64,000 nucleotides of DNA from Segetibacter sp. 3557_3 (GTDB lineage Bacteria; Bacteroidota; Bacteroidia; Chitinophagales; Chitinophagaceae). Positions 13,142 to 17,857 of this stretch are shown here, in pieces. The notes beneath the pieces are model-generated. The model searched no databases, had not been told where the DNA came from, and saw only the letters and a program-made list of their open reading frames with translations. The DNA lies in the NCBI RefSeq assembly GCF_004354985.1, contig NZ_SMSK01000002.1, positions 248,001 to 312,000 on the forward strand, given 5' to 3'. A program made the position numbers and the translations under genes. Every line of letters begins with the position of its first letter. The first letter of the stretch is position 1.

Positions 13142-13525
13142 ATGCGAAAGCTAATCACATCAATAGTTGCTGTTCTATACCTGGCCGTAAGTAGCGGTTT
13201 TGTATTAAATGTGCATTATTGCATGGGAAAGGTTTCGGGCGTTAGTGTCGACAACGTTAACCCCAAAGTTTGCAGCTGTGCAAAGCCGAAGAAGAAAAGC
13301 GCCTGTTGTTCCAGTACCTTTAAGTTGATCAAGCTTGAAGATGCACACAAGGCCGCAGCAATTACTGCCTACCAGTCTTCTATCCAGGGGGTTCTGCCGG
13401 TCACCCCATCTTTTATCAATCCGGTGCTGCCTGAAGCATCCCTGTTGGTAAAACCGGTTCGTGGTAGTCCGCCACTTTCATCCGCGTCCAACATTTACCT
13501 CCGCAATTGTGTTTTTAGAATATGA
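13142..13525 (+). CDS. HYC_CC_PP-type exported Cys-rich protein
   Basis: The 127-residue protein has a hydrophobic N-terminal segment (residues 4-23) and then the pattern that names this Bacteroidota family: H25-Y26-C27, a CSC (C44, C46), a CC pair (C55-C56) and a late PP (P110-P111). The clustered Cys and His suggest a periplasmic or membrane-held metal (copper is favoured) or thiol role, but the function is not established. The ATG at 13142 is preferred over the GTG at 13136, which lies inside a promoter-like box. It heads a run of exported metal-type genes. Confidence 0.8.
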   Translation: MRKLITSIVAVLYLAVSSGFVLNVHYCMGKVSGVSVDNVNPKVCSCAKPKKKSACCSSTFKLIKLEDAHKAAAITAYQSSIQGVLPVTPSFINPVLPEASLLVKPVRGSPPLSSASNIYLRNCVFRI

Positions 13526-13633
13526 TGTCTGCCCTCGTAAAGGCCTCAATTTAGTTTTGGCGTTTACAGTTCAGCAAACGTTTACATGTTTAAACGTGGT
13601 AACAAATACCTCATATCTAATTATACACTACAA

Positions 13634-14176
13634 ATGAAAAAGGTTATAGCGCTTTGTGTTTTGTTCGTTACGCTTCAGGCACAGGCACAAATTAAACAAG
13701 CTACCCTGCAGGCGAGTGGTTTAACCTGCGCAATGTGTTCCAATGCCATTAATAAGGCACTGCAAAAACTGCCCTTCACAGCAAAGGTTGAATCCAACAT
13801 TAAGGAGTCCTCGTTCACGGTCCTTTTTAAACCAGGCATGCCGGTTAATTTTGATGCCCTCCGTAAAGCTGTAGAAGGAGCGGGATTTTCTGTTGCTAAG
13901 CTGCAGGTAAAAGCGGCCTTTAACAATGTGAAAGTAGGCAACGATGCACATCTTTCACTTCAGGGACAAAACCTGCACTTTCTTGGTATAAAAGACCAAA
14001 CCCTTGCCGGCGATCAAACTTTTCAGTTGGTAGATAAGAAGTTTGTAAGCGACAAAACATATAAAAAGTATGCGGCGTCCACCAAAATGGAATGTGTAAA
14101 AACCGGGGTGATGGCTTCGTGCTGTTCAAAACCTGGTGCAACAAACGACAACCGTATCTATCATGTAACAATCTAA
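13634..14176 (+). CDS. Exported heavy-metal-associated (HMA) domain protein
   Basis: The 180-residue protein has a signal peptide (MKKVIALCVLFVTLQAQAQ) followed by an HMA fold of about 70 residues with the metal motif GLTCAMCSNAI (C32, C35), the form that binds Cu(I) in copper chaperones. The C-terminal part is unique and ends with a further Cys group (MECV ... SCCSK). Export sets it apart from cytosolic CopZ-type chaperones. The ATG at 13634 fits the signal peptide; a start 48 bp upstream would bury it. A strong terminator follows the stop. Confidence 0.85.
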   Translation: MKKVIALCVLFVTLQAQAQIKQATLQASGLTCAMCSNAINKALQKLPFTAKVESNIKESSFTVLFKPGMPVNFDALRKAVEGAGFSVAKLQVKAAFNNVKVGNDAHLSLQGQNLHFLGIKDQTLAGDQTFQLVDKKFVSDKTYKKYAASTKMECVKTGVMASCCSKPGATNDNRIYHVTI

Positions 14177-14183
14177 TCATATC

Positions 14184-14212
14184 CCACCCGGCTTTGCCGG
14201 GTGGTTTTTTTT
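14184..14212 (+). terminator. Intrinsic terminator abutting the next start codon
   Basis: A perfect 9-bp GC-rich stem (CCACCCGGC at 14184-14192, GCCGGGTGG at 14196-14204) with loop TTT is followed by eight T (14205-14212). The ATG of the thioredoxin-like gene is the very next base (14213). Confidence 0.85.
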
Positions 14213-14695
14213 ATGAAATACTTACTTGCTCTTCTGCTTTTATGCGCCACGAATGGTGCGCTGGTAAGCGCACAGCCTCAAAAGGGTACACAGGCACCTG
14301 ACATTGTACTTCCGGATGCAACAGGAACCACCTGGCGTTTATCGGCTTTAAAAGGTAAGGTTGTTCTGCTGGACTTTTGGGCATCCTGGTGCGGGCCCTG
14401 CAGGATAAATAACCGTAAGATGATCTCGTTCTATGAGCAAAATAAGGGTAGGGGTTTCGAAATCTTCGGCGTATCACTCGACGCCAATAAATCTGCCTGG
14501 ATGCGTGCCATAAAGCAGGATAAGATGACCTGGCCGCAGGTTATCGACCTGAGTGCCGCTTCAGGAAATGAGCTTACACATACCTGGAACCTGATGTACA
14601 TTCCTGCTACTTTCCTGATTGACAAGGAAGGAAAGCTCGTTGCTATGAACCCAGGCAGGGACGAACTTGAAACGCTGCTGAAGAAGTTGCTTTAA
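14213..14695 (+). CDS. TlpA-like exported thioredoxin-fold protein
   Basis: The 160-residue protein has a signal peptide (cleavage likely after VSA near residue 20) and a TlpA/ResA-type thioredoxin domain with LLDFWASWCGPC (C60, C63) and the cis-Pro segment MYIPATFLIDKEG. It would act in the periplasm as a thiol reductant, for example keeping Cys metal sites or CxxCH haem sites reduced. The ATG at 14213 directly follows the poly-T of a terminator, leaving no room for a leader after the hairpin. Its neighbours are metal-type exported proteins. Confidence 0.88.
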   Translation: MKYLLALLLLCATNGALVSAQPQKGTQAPDIVLPDATGTTWRLSALKGKVVLLDFWASWCGPCRINNRKMISFYEQNKGRGFEIFGVSLDANKSAWMRAIKQDKMTWPQVIDLSAASGNELTHTWNLMYIPATFLIDKEGKLVAMNPGRDELETLLKKLL

Positions 14696-14759
14696 CTACT
14701 ACCATCGGCACGTCCGGCTTTTTTCAACATCACGACAAAGTCGTGCAGACAATCTATTT

Positions 14760-15572
14760 ATGAAATTATTGTTTACAATATGCCTGGTTTATTTTGTTAA
14801 TACCAGTTTCTCCCAGGAGCTGTATGTGTTTTCGGAGCCAGCCAGTAATATGCCAGCCAGGTCAATTTCATTCAAGGGAACCGCCCGCTTTCCATATAAT
14901 AAAATGACGAACACTTACCGGCAACGTTATATGCCTGAGATCATGTTTGGCATCAATAAAAACTGGATGGTTCACTTCTCCGGTTCTTTTTCAGATTTTC
15001 ACTTTAAGAACATTCGTTACGACGGCGCAAGGTTGTATGCTAAATATCGGTTTCTTTCGAATGATGAGGTGCATCGTCACTTTCGGATGGCAGCTTTTGC
15101 AGATGCGGCATTTACCCGAAACCCATACACCTACCAGGAAGTAAATCTCGAAGGCGATAATGACGGTGCCCAGTTAGGCTTCATCGCTACACAATTAGTT
15201 AATAAAACGGCGGTATCCCTCACTGCTGCGTATACCCGGGTATTTGCACAAAAGACCGGGCACCAGGATCATCGTGATCGTTCGTTACACATGATCAATT
15301 ACACGCTATCAGCAGGACAGCTCCTCCTGCCAAAGGAGTATACTGATTACCGTCAAACCAACCTTAACCTTTATGTTGAATTAATGGGCTCCAAAGCATT
15401 AGACAGTCATCATTATGGTGTTGATCTTGCGCCGGCAGTTCAGGTGATATTCAACAGCAACACCAAGGTCAACCTTGGTTATCGCTTTCAGTTAAAAAGC
15501 AACATGACGAGGGTTGGAGAAAACATGGTGCAAATAGCAATTGAGCGCACGCTTCTAAATGCCTGGAAATAG
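14760..15572 (+). CDS. Putative outer-membrane beta-barrel protein of a copper-type locus
   Basis: The 270-residue protein has a signal peptide (MKLLFTICLVYFVNTSFSQ) and alternating hydrophobic/polar strands ending in aromatic residues, as expected for an outer-membrane beta-barrel of about 10-12 strands. The C-terminus (LLNAWK) is not a classical terminal Phe. Many His residues sit in loop-like parts (DEVHRHFR, GHQDHRDRSLH, DSHHYG). No function is assigned; the His content and location suggest metal-linked transport or sensing. A small CACGAC/GTCGTG hairpin lies in its leader at 14731-14745. Confidence 0.65.
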   Translation: MKLLFTICLVYFVNTSFSQELYVFSEPASNMPARSISFKGTARFPYNKMTNTYRQRYMPEIMFGINKNWMVHFSGSFSDFHFKNIRYDGARLYAKYRFLSNDEVHRHFRMAAFADAAFTRNPYTYQEVNLEGDNDGAQLGFIATQLVNKTAVSLTAAYTRVFAQKTGHQDHRDRSLHMINYTLSAGQLLLPKEYTDYRQTNLNLYVELMGSKALDSHHYGVDLAPAVQVIFNSNTKVNLGYRFQLKSNMTRVGENMVQIAIERTLLNAWK

Positions 15573-16055
15573 TGACCTACCATTCCCCCTCCACTTAAGA
15601 ACCTCAAGTCAAAGCCATAACAGAATTACATAGCACGAAACATCGTCAGCGGTCGCCTGATGTATCGTCAGCTTTGGTCAGCTTTTTTACATTGCAAATA
15701 GATATGCGAGGTAAATTGCCACCCGAACCCTGGATGGCTATAAACCGTGTCGCGGTCCCCGGGCACCATCATTTGTGAAATGCTTAGCTCTTCACACTTA
15801 AGTTGACAAACCAAAGTGCTTGGTTGGTTGCTACGAGTAAATCAAAAACGGTAGTTGCGTTTACCGGTAACACCGGAAACAGTAGCAAGGTGTACTATCA
15901 GCAGCTGCAATAATTTAACAACCTGGCTGAGTTGGCGCATTTACCAGTTTTGCCAGAACGTGTATCTTTAACCCGGCCATGCCTTACAGTTTACGGGCAA
16001 GCAGCTTATTTGCACTTCGAAGTATCTACCTTGTTAAGTTCATCATTGCGATCTT
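15573..16055. other. Non-coding region before mbnP
   Basis: There is no credible gene in these 483 bases. A small perfect hairpin (AACCAA at 15809-15814 with TTGGTT at 15820-15825) is present. No full TTG/TAnnTTTG promoter was found, though the mbnP promoter must lie here. Copper-responsive operators could not be recognised. Confidence 0.4.
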
Positions 16056-16814
16056 ATGAAGTTTTTTTCCCTTGCGGTTTTAGTTTCTCTCACCTTCTGT
16101 CTTGGTTCATGCCAGCGCGAGCTCATTATGGAACCCGGTGCTGGTCGTCCTTTGAAACTGAGCTTCAAAAATGTTGCAGGTAAAACCGTCATGCAGCCTG
16201 GAACCACATATCAAAACTCCTTTGGTGAGCCGTATACCGTCAGTATGTTCAAATATTATATCAGCAACATAAAACTACAGGCTCAATCGGGCAATTGGGC
16301 CAATGTTGACGGGGTGTACCACCTGGTGGATGAAGCAGACTCTTCTTCAAAGTCATTCGAGATAAATGTGCCGGAGGGCGTTTATACCAGGATTTCCTTC
16401 ATTATTGGTGTAGACAGCATACGAAATGTAAGTGGAACACAGGCGGGTGACCTTGACCCATTAAAAGGTATGTTCTGGACGTGGAACACCGGCTATGTTA
16501 TGGCTAAACTCGAAGGCACCTCACCCTTATCCACCGCACCAAACCAAAACTTAACGTTACACGCAGGTGGGTTCAGAACAGGAGAAAATACCATCAGGCA
16601 GGCTTCTCCAGCGTTCCCTCCCGGTTCCGTGATTACGGTAAGGAGCGATAAAGTGAGTGAAGTTTTTTTAGAAGCAGATGCAAACTCATGGTTTACAGGC
16701 CCGCACCAATTAAGAATCGCCGACCATCCGGTATGTACCAATGCGGGAGAACTGGCTGTGAAGTTCGCTGACAATTATAGATACATGTTTAAAATTGTAG
16801 CGATCAACAACTAA
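16056..16814 (+). CDS. mbnP: MbnP-family copper-binding lipoprotein
   Basis: The 252-residue protein has a lipoprotein signal with lipobox LGSC (C19). It carries the MbnP family signature: a YYISN segment (about 67-71), HLVDEAD with H89, FIIGVDSIRNVSG (about 115-127), the GMFWTWNTGYVMAKLEG block (W141, W143) and H169 in NLTLHAGGF. In characterised relatives (MbnP, CorA) a tryptophan is oxidised to kynurenine and helps bind copper; one of W141/W143 is the candidate here (inference). The stop overlaps the next ATG (TAATG), coupling it to an MbnH-like di-haem enzyme. No methanobactin peptide or mbnB/C gene is in view. Confidence 0.87.
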   Translation: MKFFSLAVLVSLTFCLGSCQRELIMEPGAGRPLKLSFKNVAGKTVMQPGTTYQNSFGEPYTVSMFKYYISNIKLQAQSGNWANVDGVYHLVDEADSSSKSFEINVPEGVYTRISFIIGVDSIRNVSGTQAGDLDPLKGMFWTWNTGYVMAKLEGTSPLSTAPNQNLTLHAGGFRTGENTIRQASPAFPPGSVITVRSDKVSEVFLEADANSWFTGPHQLRIADHPVCTNAGELAVKFADNYRYMFKIVAINN

Positions 16815-17857
16815 TGCAGAAAGTCATATCCACCATACTTGTATTAGTGGTGCTCACGGGCATTCTTGCGATTGATGCCTGTAAGAAAAAAGACGTGCAG
16901 TCGCCAGCTGCGGCGACAACCCCGCTGAACTTTACGGTTCCGGCAGGCTGGCCACAGCCAAAGTACCGGTTCGACAGTAACCAACTAACCAAAGAAGGCT
17001 TTGAGCTGGGCAAGAAGTTATTCTACGATGGCCGATTGAGTAAAGATGGAAATTTCCCCTGTGGAAGTTGCCACCAGCAATTTGCAGCTTTTGCCACATT
17101 TGATCACGACCTTAGCCATGGTTTCAACAATACGCTTACCACGCGTAATTCTCCCGGGCTTGCAAACCTGGCCTGGCAAAGCGAGTTTATGTGGGATGGC
17201 GGTATTAACCACCTCGATCTTCAACCGCTTGCACCTATAACTGCCCCCAATGAAATGGCAGAGACCATCTCCGGGGTTATTGGAAAACTCCAGTCCGATC
17301 CCGTGTACCGCGGAATGTTTAAGGCGGCATTCGGAACCGAGCAGGTGAACACGCAGCGAATGACAAGGGCGTTGAGCCAGTTCATATTGATGATGGTAAG
17401 TAACAATAGCAAGTACGACAAGGTAAAAAGGGGAGAGGCTACATTCACCCTGTCTGAAGGACTGGGCTACGAAATCTTCAAGGCAAAGTGCGCCGGGTGT
17501 CATGCTGAACCGCTATTCACCGACCAGAGTTATAGAAATGTGGGATTACCCGTTAACAACAGCATAAAGGATTTCGGCAGGATGCTGATTACACGCAACC
17601 CTGCCGATTCCCTTAAGTTTAAGGTGCCAACCCTGCGGAATGTAGAATTGAGCTTTCCTTACGAGCACGATGGAAGGTTTTACTACCTGGACAATGTGCT
17701 TGAGCATTATCGAAACGGGGTAGTTAATGGCCCTACTACTGACCCGCTGGTGAGGGGCAAGATACCCTTAAGTAATTTTGAGATCGGACAACTGAAGTCT
17801 TTTCTTTTTGCTTTAACCGACAGTACATTCTTAAAAGATAAGCGTTTCAGCGAATGA
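16814..17857 (+). CDS. mbnH: MbnH/cytochrome c peroxidase-like di-haem protein
   Basis: This 347-residue periplasmic lipoprotein (likely anchor C23 in DACKKK) has two c-type haem sites, CGSCH (C83, C86, H87) and CAGCH (C226, C229, H230). It belongs to the cytochrome c peroxidase/MauG superfamily, with FDHDLSHG, ELGKKLFYD and VPTLRNVELSFPYEHDGRF segments. Enzymes paired with MbnP oxidise a tryptophan of MbnP to kynurenine instead of only removing peroxide. Translational overlap with mbnP supports that role, but ordinary peroxidase activity cannot be excluded. Haem attachment would need the cytochrome c maturation system, part of which is encoded at 2.1-4.3 kb. Confidence 0.88.
   Translation: MQKVISTILVLVVLTGILAIDACKKKDVQSPAAATTPLNFTVPAGWPQPKYRFDSNQLTKEGFELGKKLFYDGRLSKDGNFPCGSCHQQFAAFATFDHDLSHGFNNTLTTRNSPGLANLAWQSEFMWDGGINHLDLQPLAPITAPNEMAETISGVIGKLQSDPVYRGMFKAAFGTEQVNTQRMTRALSQFILMMVSNNSKYDKVKRGEATFTLSEGLGYEIFKAKCAGCHAEPLFTDQSYRNVGLPVNNSIKDFGRMLITRNPADSLKFKVPTLRNVELSFPYEHDGRFYYLDNVLEHYRNGVVNGPTTDPLVRGKIPLSNFEIGQLKSFLFALTDSTFLKDKRFSE

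Follow-up and report, generated by a model that had tools for sequence, protein, structure and literature searches.

The 64,000-nucleotide stretch of Segetibacter sp. 3557_3 DNA analysed here (contig NZ_SMSK01000002.1, positions 248,001 to 312,000, hereafter the window) encodes at positions 16056–17857 a gene pair that is likely to belong to a Bacteroidota branch of the kynurenine-copper system known as MbnP/MbnH, with four metal-type genes upstream that would constitute a separate cassette, adjacent to the pair here only among the genomes checked. The pair closes a run of six co-directional open reading frames (ORFs) on the plus strand of this 6.7 Mb genome, within ~4.7 kb at 13142–17857, which encode in order a HYC_CC_PP family Cys protein, an HMA-domain protein, a TlpA-like thioredoxin, a predicted outer-membrane barrel, MbnP and MbnH. 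An earlier note made from the sequence alone (the original prediction) had described these six genes on one strand, and the ORFs are found where it placed them. The pair is genuine yet commonplace, and it represents a divergent branch of a type already described. Kynurenine-copper pairs would then be widespread in the biology of a Bacteroidota family far removed from the methanotrophs.

MbnP and its predicted copper site

MbnP scores 162.6 bits on PF20243 (cut-off 27), which places it in the Pfam MbnP superfamily. An AlphaFold2 (AF2) model built with 53 sequences has a mean predicted local distance difference test score (pLDDT) of 91.8, and in a Foldseek comparison of this model with the PDB no entry apart from 7l6g, which is MbnP from Methylosinus trichosporium, matches at E≤0.001; its six chains do so with E 6.8e-9 to 8.0e-8 and 15–17% identity. 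The block GMFWTWNTGY spans residues 138–147 and holds W141 and W143, as first proposed. Among 89 distinct MbnPs, Met139 is conserved in 88 and Trp141, Trp143 and His169 in all 89, a set that excludes five MbnP-like copies scoring below 200 bits (three without WxW, one with SWMW and one 94-residue fragment). The WxW motif and the conserved Met and His of the superfamily, its putative ligands, are therefore present. In Methylosinus, MbnH reportedly converts the first Trp of WxW to kynurenine (Manesis and others, PNAS 2021), and Cu(I) is reportedly coordinated by a His, a Met and solvent, the kynurenine being close by. The M-x-W-x-W pattern and the invariant His169 fit such a site, which names Met139, Trp141 and His169 as the predicted copper-site residues in a divergent branch. 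Of the two tryptophans, Trp141 would be the residue to watch for kynurenine formation.

In the mechanism we propose, MbnH would be an exported di-haem enzyme. One of its haems would have a Tyr in the axial-Tyr place, and the other a Gln/Pro/Glu pocket of the MauG type. The enzyme would oxidise Trp141 of MbnP, the first Trp of WxW, to kynurenine. MbnP, a probable lipoprotein, may then bind a single Cu(I) through Met139 and His169, the kynurenine lying alongside, as conservation and fold suggest when read with the ligand set reported for Methylosinus. The pair would probably serve to handle copper, either in the periplasm or at the outer membrane.

Variant MbnP-like genes were also encountered in the family. 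Three lack WxW and lie near normal WxW MbnPs (L037:2619-3410, which is the same as L124:10184-10975, L130:12076-12915 and L047:2895-3503); they are possible non-copper partners. Locus L155:7959-11722 carries two tandem MbnP/MbnH pairs, and its more divergent MbnP has SWMWHTSY where MFWxWNSGY is usual.

MbnH and its haem pocket

MbnH belongs to the superfamily of bacterial cytochrome c peroxidase (bCCP) and MauG (165.4 bits on CCP_MauG, PF03150, cut-off 25.6) and has two CxxCH motifs, C83–H87 and C226–H230. Its best match among PDB sequences is the bCCP 1iqc (1.1e-39), and 6e1c, which we take to be the Methylosinus MbnH, aligns over residues 30–347. Tyr299 of the window protein aligns with a Tyr of 6e1c and is a probable axial haem ligand. 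The distal pocket of MauG consists of Gln103, Pro107 and Glu113 (PMC6405878), and equal spacing maps these three residues onto MbnH Q137, P141 and E147, giving a MauG-type pocket. The axial ligand of MauG is Tyr294. Both P141 and E147 are kept in 68/68 MbnHs paired with an MbnP. The genome also encodes two distant di-haem enzymes at 32–33% identity.

MbnP is tied to MbnH across the family

In a sample of 294 genomes of the family, with MbnH counted at E≤1e-50 to the window protein, MbnP is present in 205, MbnH in 239 and both in 202 (odds ratio 95, p 1e-29). Only three genomes have MbnP without MbnH, namely G479, which is 60% complete, and G614 and G664, which give weak MbnH matches (7e-9 and 3e-6), and MbnP is thus tied to MbnH. 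The converse, MbnH without MbnP, occurs in 37 of the 294. The MbnH gene lies directly downstream of MbnP in 66 of the 89 cases. At class level MbnP is found in 298 of 395 genomes. At least 589 relatives of the window's MbnP were matched, and many among the best 80 named ones are Chitinophagaceae. The window's genome itself has a single PF20243 match and a single HYC_CC_PP match. The fold, the WxW motif with its Met and His, and this genome-level dependence on MbnH together fit a copper pair of the MbnP/MbnH type.

Two settings recur among 45 loci with MbnP or MbnH. The first includes a small Cys protein (26 loci), a 306-residue CNVCGC protein (22), DUF2911 (9/45) and SCO1/SenC (6/45), each named from one example; we count the last two in favour of a kynurenine-copper role. 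The second is a housekeeping locus, whose neighbours are read as dtd, arfB and a flippase from sequence alone, without a search. The closest relative of the window's MbnH, at 69–71% identity, belongs to a member of the same genus (G609) and sits at this second setting, and the pair therefore seems to have changed place in the window's lineage. Spread by plasmids was considered and rejected, as the only match among 72,556 plasmid records was a weak one in Deinococcus grandis, with 29% identity across 46% of the query.

A link to methanobactin is likewise rejected, since MbnB (TIGR04159) has no match at E≤0.001 in the window's genome. The expectation of a copper-type pair without methanobactin in Bacteroidota was thus borne out, in agreement with motif, fold and MbnH dependence. 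Such a pair is no surprise, because MbnP/MbnH is conserved far beyond the methanobactin producers studied, according to PMC3621798.

Alternative explanations

The original prediction had grouped the four upstream genes with the pair, and the most tempting form of that grouping is a single copper system in which reduced copper comes from the HMA protein and the thioredoxin, crosses by way of the barrel and is held by MbnP/MbnH. We regard this as unlikely. It would account for the compact, co-directional run, and elsewhere the cassette sometimes lies by a CusA-type resistance-nodulation-division (RND) pump (6 loci), a Cu-type P-ATPase, a CxxC AraC-type protein or TonB receptors. It also draws on the association between barrel and MbnH, which weighs against our separation of cassette and pair: the barrel occurs in 122/239 genomes with MbnH versus 15/55 without (p 0.0016, with the barrel list used without its last, weakest rows), the two genes lie within 15 kb in 2/69 genomes, both of the window's genus, and in one of them (G485) MbnH adjoins the barrel in another gene order with no MbnP there. 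Against a single system, barrel and MbnP co-occur in 99 genomes where 95.5 are expected by chance (p 0.45). Among the 61 genomes with both places listed they lie within 15 kb only in the window's own, and in 0/60 others (MbnP places were listed for 123/205 genomes and barrel places for 132/137, with the window's row added separately). Of 55 barrel loci, the window's alone shows MbnP. The co-occurrence that had been put forward as a check is accordingly at chance level for MbnP, and what stands of it is a weak association with MbnH. Within the run itself, a terminator-like hairpin after the HMA gene and a 483-nt gap before MbnP suggest that a single transcript of all six genes is improbable. 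Taken over all its sites, the terminator scan is near shuffle level (9 sites versus 7.4), and the terminator argument therefore rests on the one strong hairpin. With chance-level co-occurrence, no adjacency in the 60 other genomes listed, and both hairpin and gap inside the run, we reject one six-gene copper operon; the cassette probably lies beside the pair by chance, in the window's genome alone as far as checked. The neighbouring metal genes are better described as a separate cassette, which corrects an attractive operon story.

A second possibility, which we also consider unlikely, is that MbnH is an H2O2-reducing peroxidase and MbnP remains unmodified, its Trp residues being structural. 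Membership of the CCP_MauG superfamily and the bCCP as top PDB sequence match would suit such an enzyme, as would the persistence of orphan MbnHs without MbnP, from which MbnH seems useful on its own. The 23 of 89 MbnPs that keep WxW with no MbnH directly downstream point the same way. This is hard to reconcile with the presence of MbnH in all but three MbnP genomes, with the invariance of P141 and E147 in the 68 pairs and with the alignment of Tyr299 to the 6e1c Tyr. Besides these 23 MbnPs, several comparisons weigh against a kynurenine-copper pair of the Methylosinus kind. MbnP reaches 39.8 bits on the NCBI equivalog TIGR04052, where the cut-off is 140 (three other MbnPs from the genomes studied reach 42–50), and MbnH 181.3 bits on TIGR04039 with a cut-off of 362.85. 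As both NCBI cut-offs are missed, MbnP is filed under the Pfam MbnP superfamily and not under TIGR04052/TIGR04039, that is, not as NCBI's own MbnP/MbnH. The template modelling (TM) scores of the MbnP model against 7l6g are moderate (0.52–0.56). Searched against PDB sequences, the single MbnP sequence gave one chance-level match (E 0.12) and missed 7l6g, and a profile of 53 MbnPs gave nothing at E≤1, 7l6g included. A divergent kynurenine-copper pair nevertheless remains the reading we prefer.

The upstream cassette and layout of the run

The families named in the original prediction are recovered (Table 1), and the HYC_CC_PP protein exceeds its curated cut-off; no paper under that name turned up in the open-licence literature. 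Its residues H27, C29, M30, C46, C48, C57 and C58 are kept in 49/49 rows. The CxxC noted in the exported HMA protein begins at residue 48 (C48, C51) and is kept in 50/50 rows, and that of the TlpA-like protein (C64, C67) in 35/36. The barrel has no family above its cut-off, and its description as His-rich does not hold, as only 9 of 270 residues are His. Its AF2 model has 12 strands and in Foldseek matches FapF (1.7e-6) and the COG4313 channel 4rl8 (3.6e-5) in the PDB.

Table 1. Features of the six-gene run in the window
Feature	Position	Strand	Evidence
HYC_CC_PP family Cys protein (cassette; outside the MbnP/MbnH unit)	13142..13525	+	NF047658 41.5 bits, cut-off 28
HMA-domain protein, signal-like N-terminus, CxxC (cassette)	13634..14176; open frame from 13586	+	PF00403 37.1 bits
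Terminator-like hairpin and T run, 3' of HMA gene	14184..14212, hairpin 14184-14204	+	Fold -18.9 kcal/mol, z -3.8
TlpA/ResA-like thioredoxin, WCGPC (cassette)	14213..14695; open frame from 14201	+	PF08534, PF00578 (Redoxin/AhpC-TSA)
Predicted 12-strand outer-membrane channel (cassette barrel)	14760..15572	+	AF2 pLDDT 85.9; Foldseek
483-nt gap, cassette to pair	15573..16055	+	
MbnP, probable lipoprotein (Cys19), predicted Cu(I) site M139, W141 (to kynurenine), H169	16056..16814	+	PF20243
MbnH-type di-haem enzyme, distal pocket Q137/P141/E147, probable axial Y299	16814..17857	+	CCP_MauG

The barrel gene is present in 137 of the 294 family genomes, and 61 loci were read, 55 of them with the barrel gene. 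Kept around it are HMA (48 loci), HYC_CC_PP (44), Porin_10 (42), a second HMA protein (36), TlpA (34) and a TonB receptor (28), together with a further gene read as a purine nucleoside phosphorylase (37 loci); the names Porin_10, HMA and TonB rest on one example each. Some loci add an AraC-type helix-turn-helix (HTH) protein with an N-terminal CxxC, or the RND pump or P-ATPase mentioned above. The window carries a shortened form, without Porin_10, the second HMA protein or the TonB receptor in that place. A scan finds a hairpin and T run after the HMA gene in 16/48 cassettes, the window's included. The four upstream genes are thus probably a metal cassette conserved independently of the MbnP/MbnH pair. 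It likely acts as a thiol/metal relay across the periplasm plus an outer-membrane channel, and copper as its metal is a guess from the neighbours. In five cassette loci an HMA domain is joined to a MauE domain, as at L181:11069-11800, whose neighbour is an AraC-type HTH protein that carries a CxxC near its N-terminus.

The start codons at 13142 (HYC_CC_PP), 13634 (HMA) and 14213 (TlpA) are the probable ones; Met17 of the HMA protein, corresponding to the start at 13634, is kept in 49/50 rows. The signals for export and lipid attachment were assigned by visual inspection of the proteins. The two genes of the pair meet at AACTAATGCAG, and the proposed TAATG overlap is present in the DNA, the last A of the MbnP TAA being the first A of the MbnH ATG. 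A sigma-70 scan gave 5 sites with 9.0 expected. The pattern TTTG-N17-23-TAnnTTTG matched once in the window with 3.1 expected, and not within the six-gene region. TAnnTTTG, which we take to be a Bacteroidota promoter element, occurs 33 times across the whole window, compared with 58 expected from shuffles.

Orphan MbnH enzymes

Within the window's genus MbnP is present in 2/10 genomes. In three others (G485, G683 and G684, which are 100, 71 and 94% complete) an MbnH at 57–62% identity is encoded in a genome with no MbnP match. Of 19 orphan neighbourhoods, 18 have at least one of the dtd-, arfB- or flippase-like housekeeping genes alongside, and no recurrent co-directional new gene that might replace MbnP was seen in the 19. 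In a 71-row lineage tree, which omits one paired row of a locus with two MbnHs (L146), a single clade for 35 orphans is rejected (approximately unbiased (AU) test, p 7e-9) and at least 6 changes are forced; MbnP has therefore been lost more than once, or, less likely, gained more than once. That it disappeared repeatedly while MbnH was retained is a firmer result than any change in the pocket, and it hints that MbnH also works without MbnP.

For the pocket, 68 paired and 41 orphan MbnHs were compared, excluding three unpaired rows with MbnP elsewhere in the genome; to the paired rows, 30 high-scoring genomes contributed one further locus apiece. Almost all of these enzymes retain the haem motifs and Tyr299, the exceptions being one Arg at Cys83 and one Phe at Tyr299 among the orphans and one Trp for Tyr299 among the pairs. 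P141 or E147 (MauG Pro107 and Glu113) is changed in 14/41 orphans versus 0/68 paired enzymes, both being kept in the other 27 orphans, and the complete Q137/P141/E147 triad is kept in 65/68 paired versus 12/41 orphan enzymes. His at 141 is seen in 12/41 orphans, that of G485 among them, and one unpaired second copy and in none of the pairs. Uncorrected tests of these pocket differences give p 1e-13 and 2e-7 and ignore kinship. Among independent orphan/paired row pairs, triad change accompanies MbnP loss in 3.0 and runs counter to it in 0.4 (median p 0.25); for change of Pro/Glu alone the figures are 2.4 and 0.0 (median p 0.5), so that the link between pocket change and MbnP loss is only a trend once kinship is considered. 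For Pro141 to His the best tree needs 6 changes and the starred branches force 3, and a single clade survives the AU test (p 0.174); the case for convergence is weaker than hoped. Some of the orphans counted, those at 38–43% identity (L243-L246), could belong to other kinds of di-haem enzyme, and completeness is 71–79% for a few of the orphan genomes (G683, G516, G535 and G649).

MbnH-type genes in genomes without an MbnP match were recorded at L102:10297-11334, L104:5322-6365, L105:1590-2621, L205-L220 and L225-L246. Where neighbours were read they lie mostly at the same housekeeping locus, and distal pocket changes (Pro to His, Gln to Glu or Val) are frequent among them.

We tentatively suggest that MbnH may have an MbnP-independent job, with MbnP lost repeatedly at one conserved locus and the pocket then free to change. 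If so, the orphan MbnHs, often with His in place of the equivalent of MauG Pro107, would be di-haem enzymes with a novel chemistry or substrate. The repeated loss amounts to a natural experiment that could tell which residues of MbnH are there for its reaction with MbnP, and the orphans are the part of this analysis most deserving of specialist attention.

Comparison with known systems

The pair resembles Methylosinus MbnP/MbnH in the fold of 7l6g, in the WxW motif with conserved Met and His and in an adjacent di-haem enzyme with two CxxCH motifs that aligns with 6e1c. It is unlike that system in that the window's genome has no MbnB match, the MbnPs are too distant for a profile link to the PDB and the NCBI cut-offs are missed. 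CorA/CorB of Methylomicrobium album and MopE/SACCP likewise involve a kynurenine copper protein encoded beside a di-haem peroxidase-type gene, as described in PMC3912023. The CorA site given there consists of two His, water and kynurenine, whereas a Met/His/kynurenine site is predicted here; PMC3621798 describes MbnP as not markedly similar to CorA in sequence. The spacing of the Gln/Pro/Glu pocket is identical in MauG (103/107/113) and the window's MbnH (137/141/147). According to PMC6405878, MauG and BthA share Tyr-His haem ligation and differ from the proposed MbnH reaction in that MauG acts on preMADH and BthA reduces peroxide to water. The four upstream genes have their own counterpart in the family's HYC_CC_PP–HMA–TlpA–barrel cassette, of which they are the shortened form.

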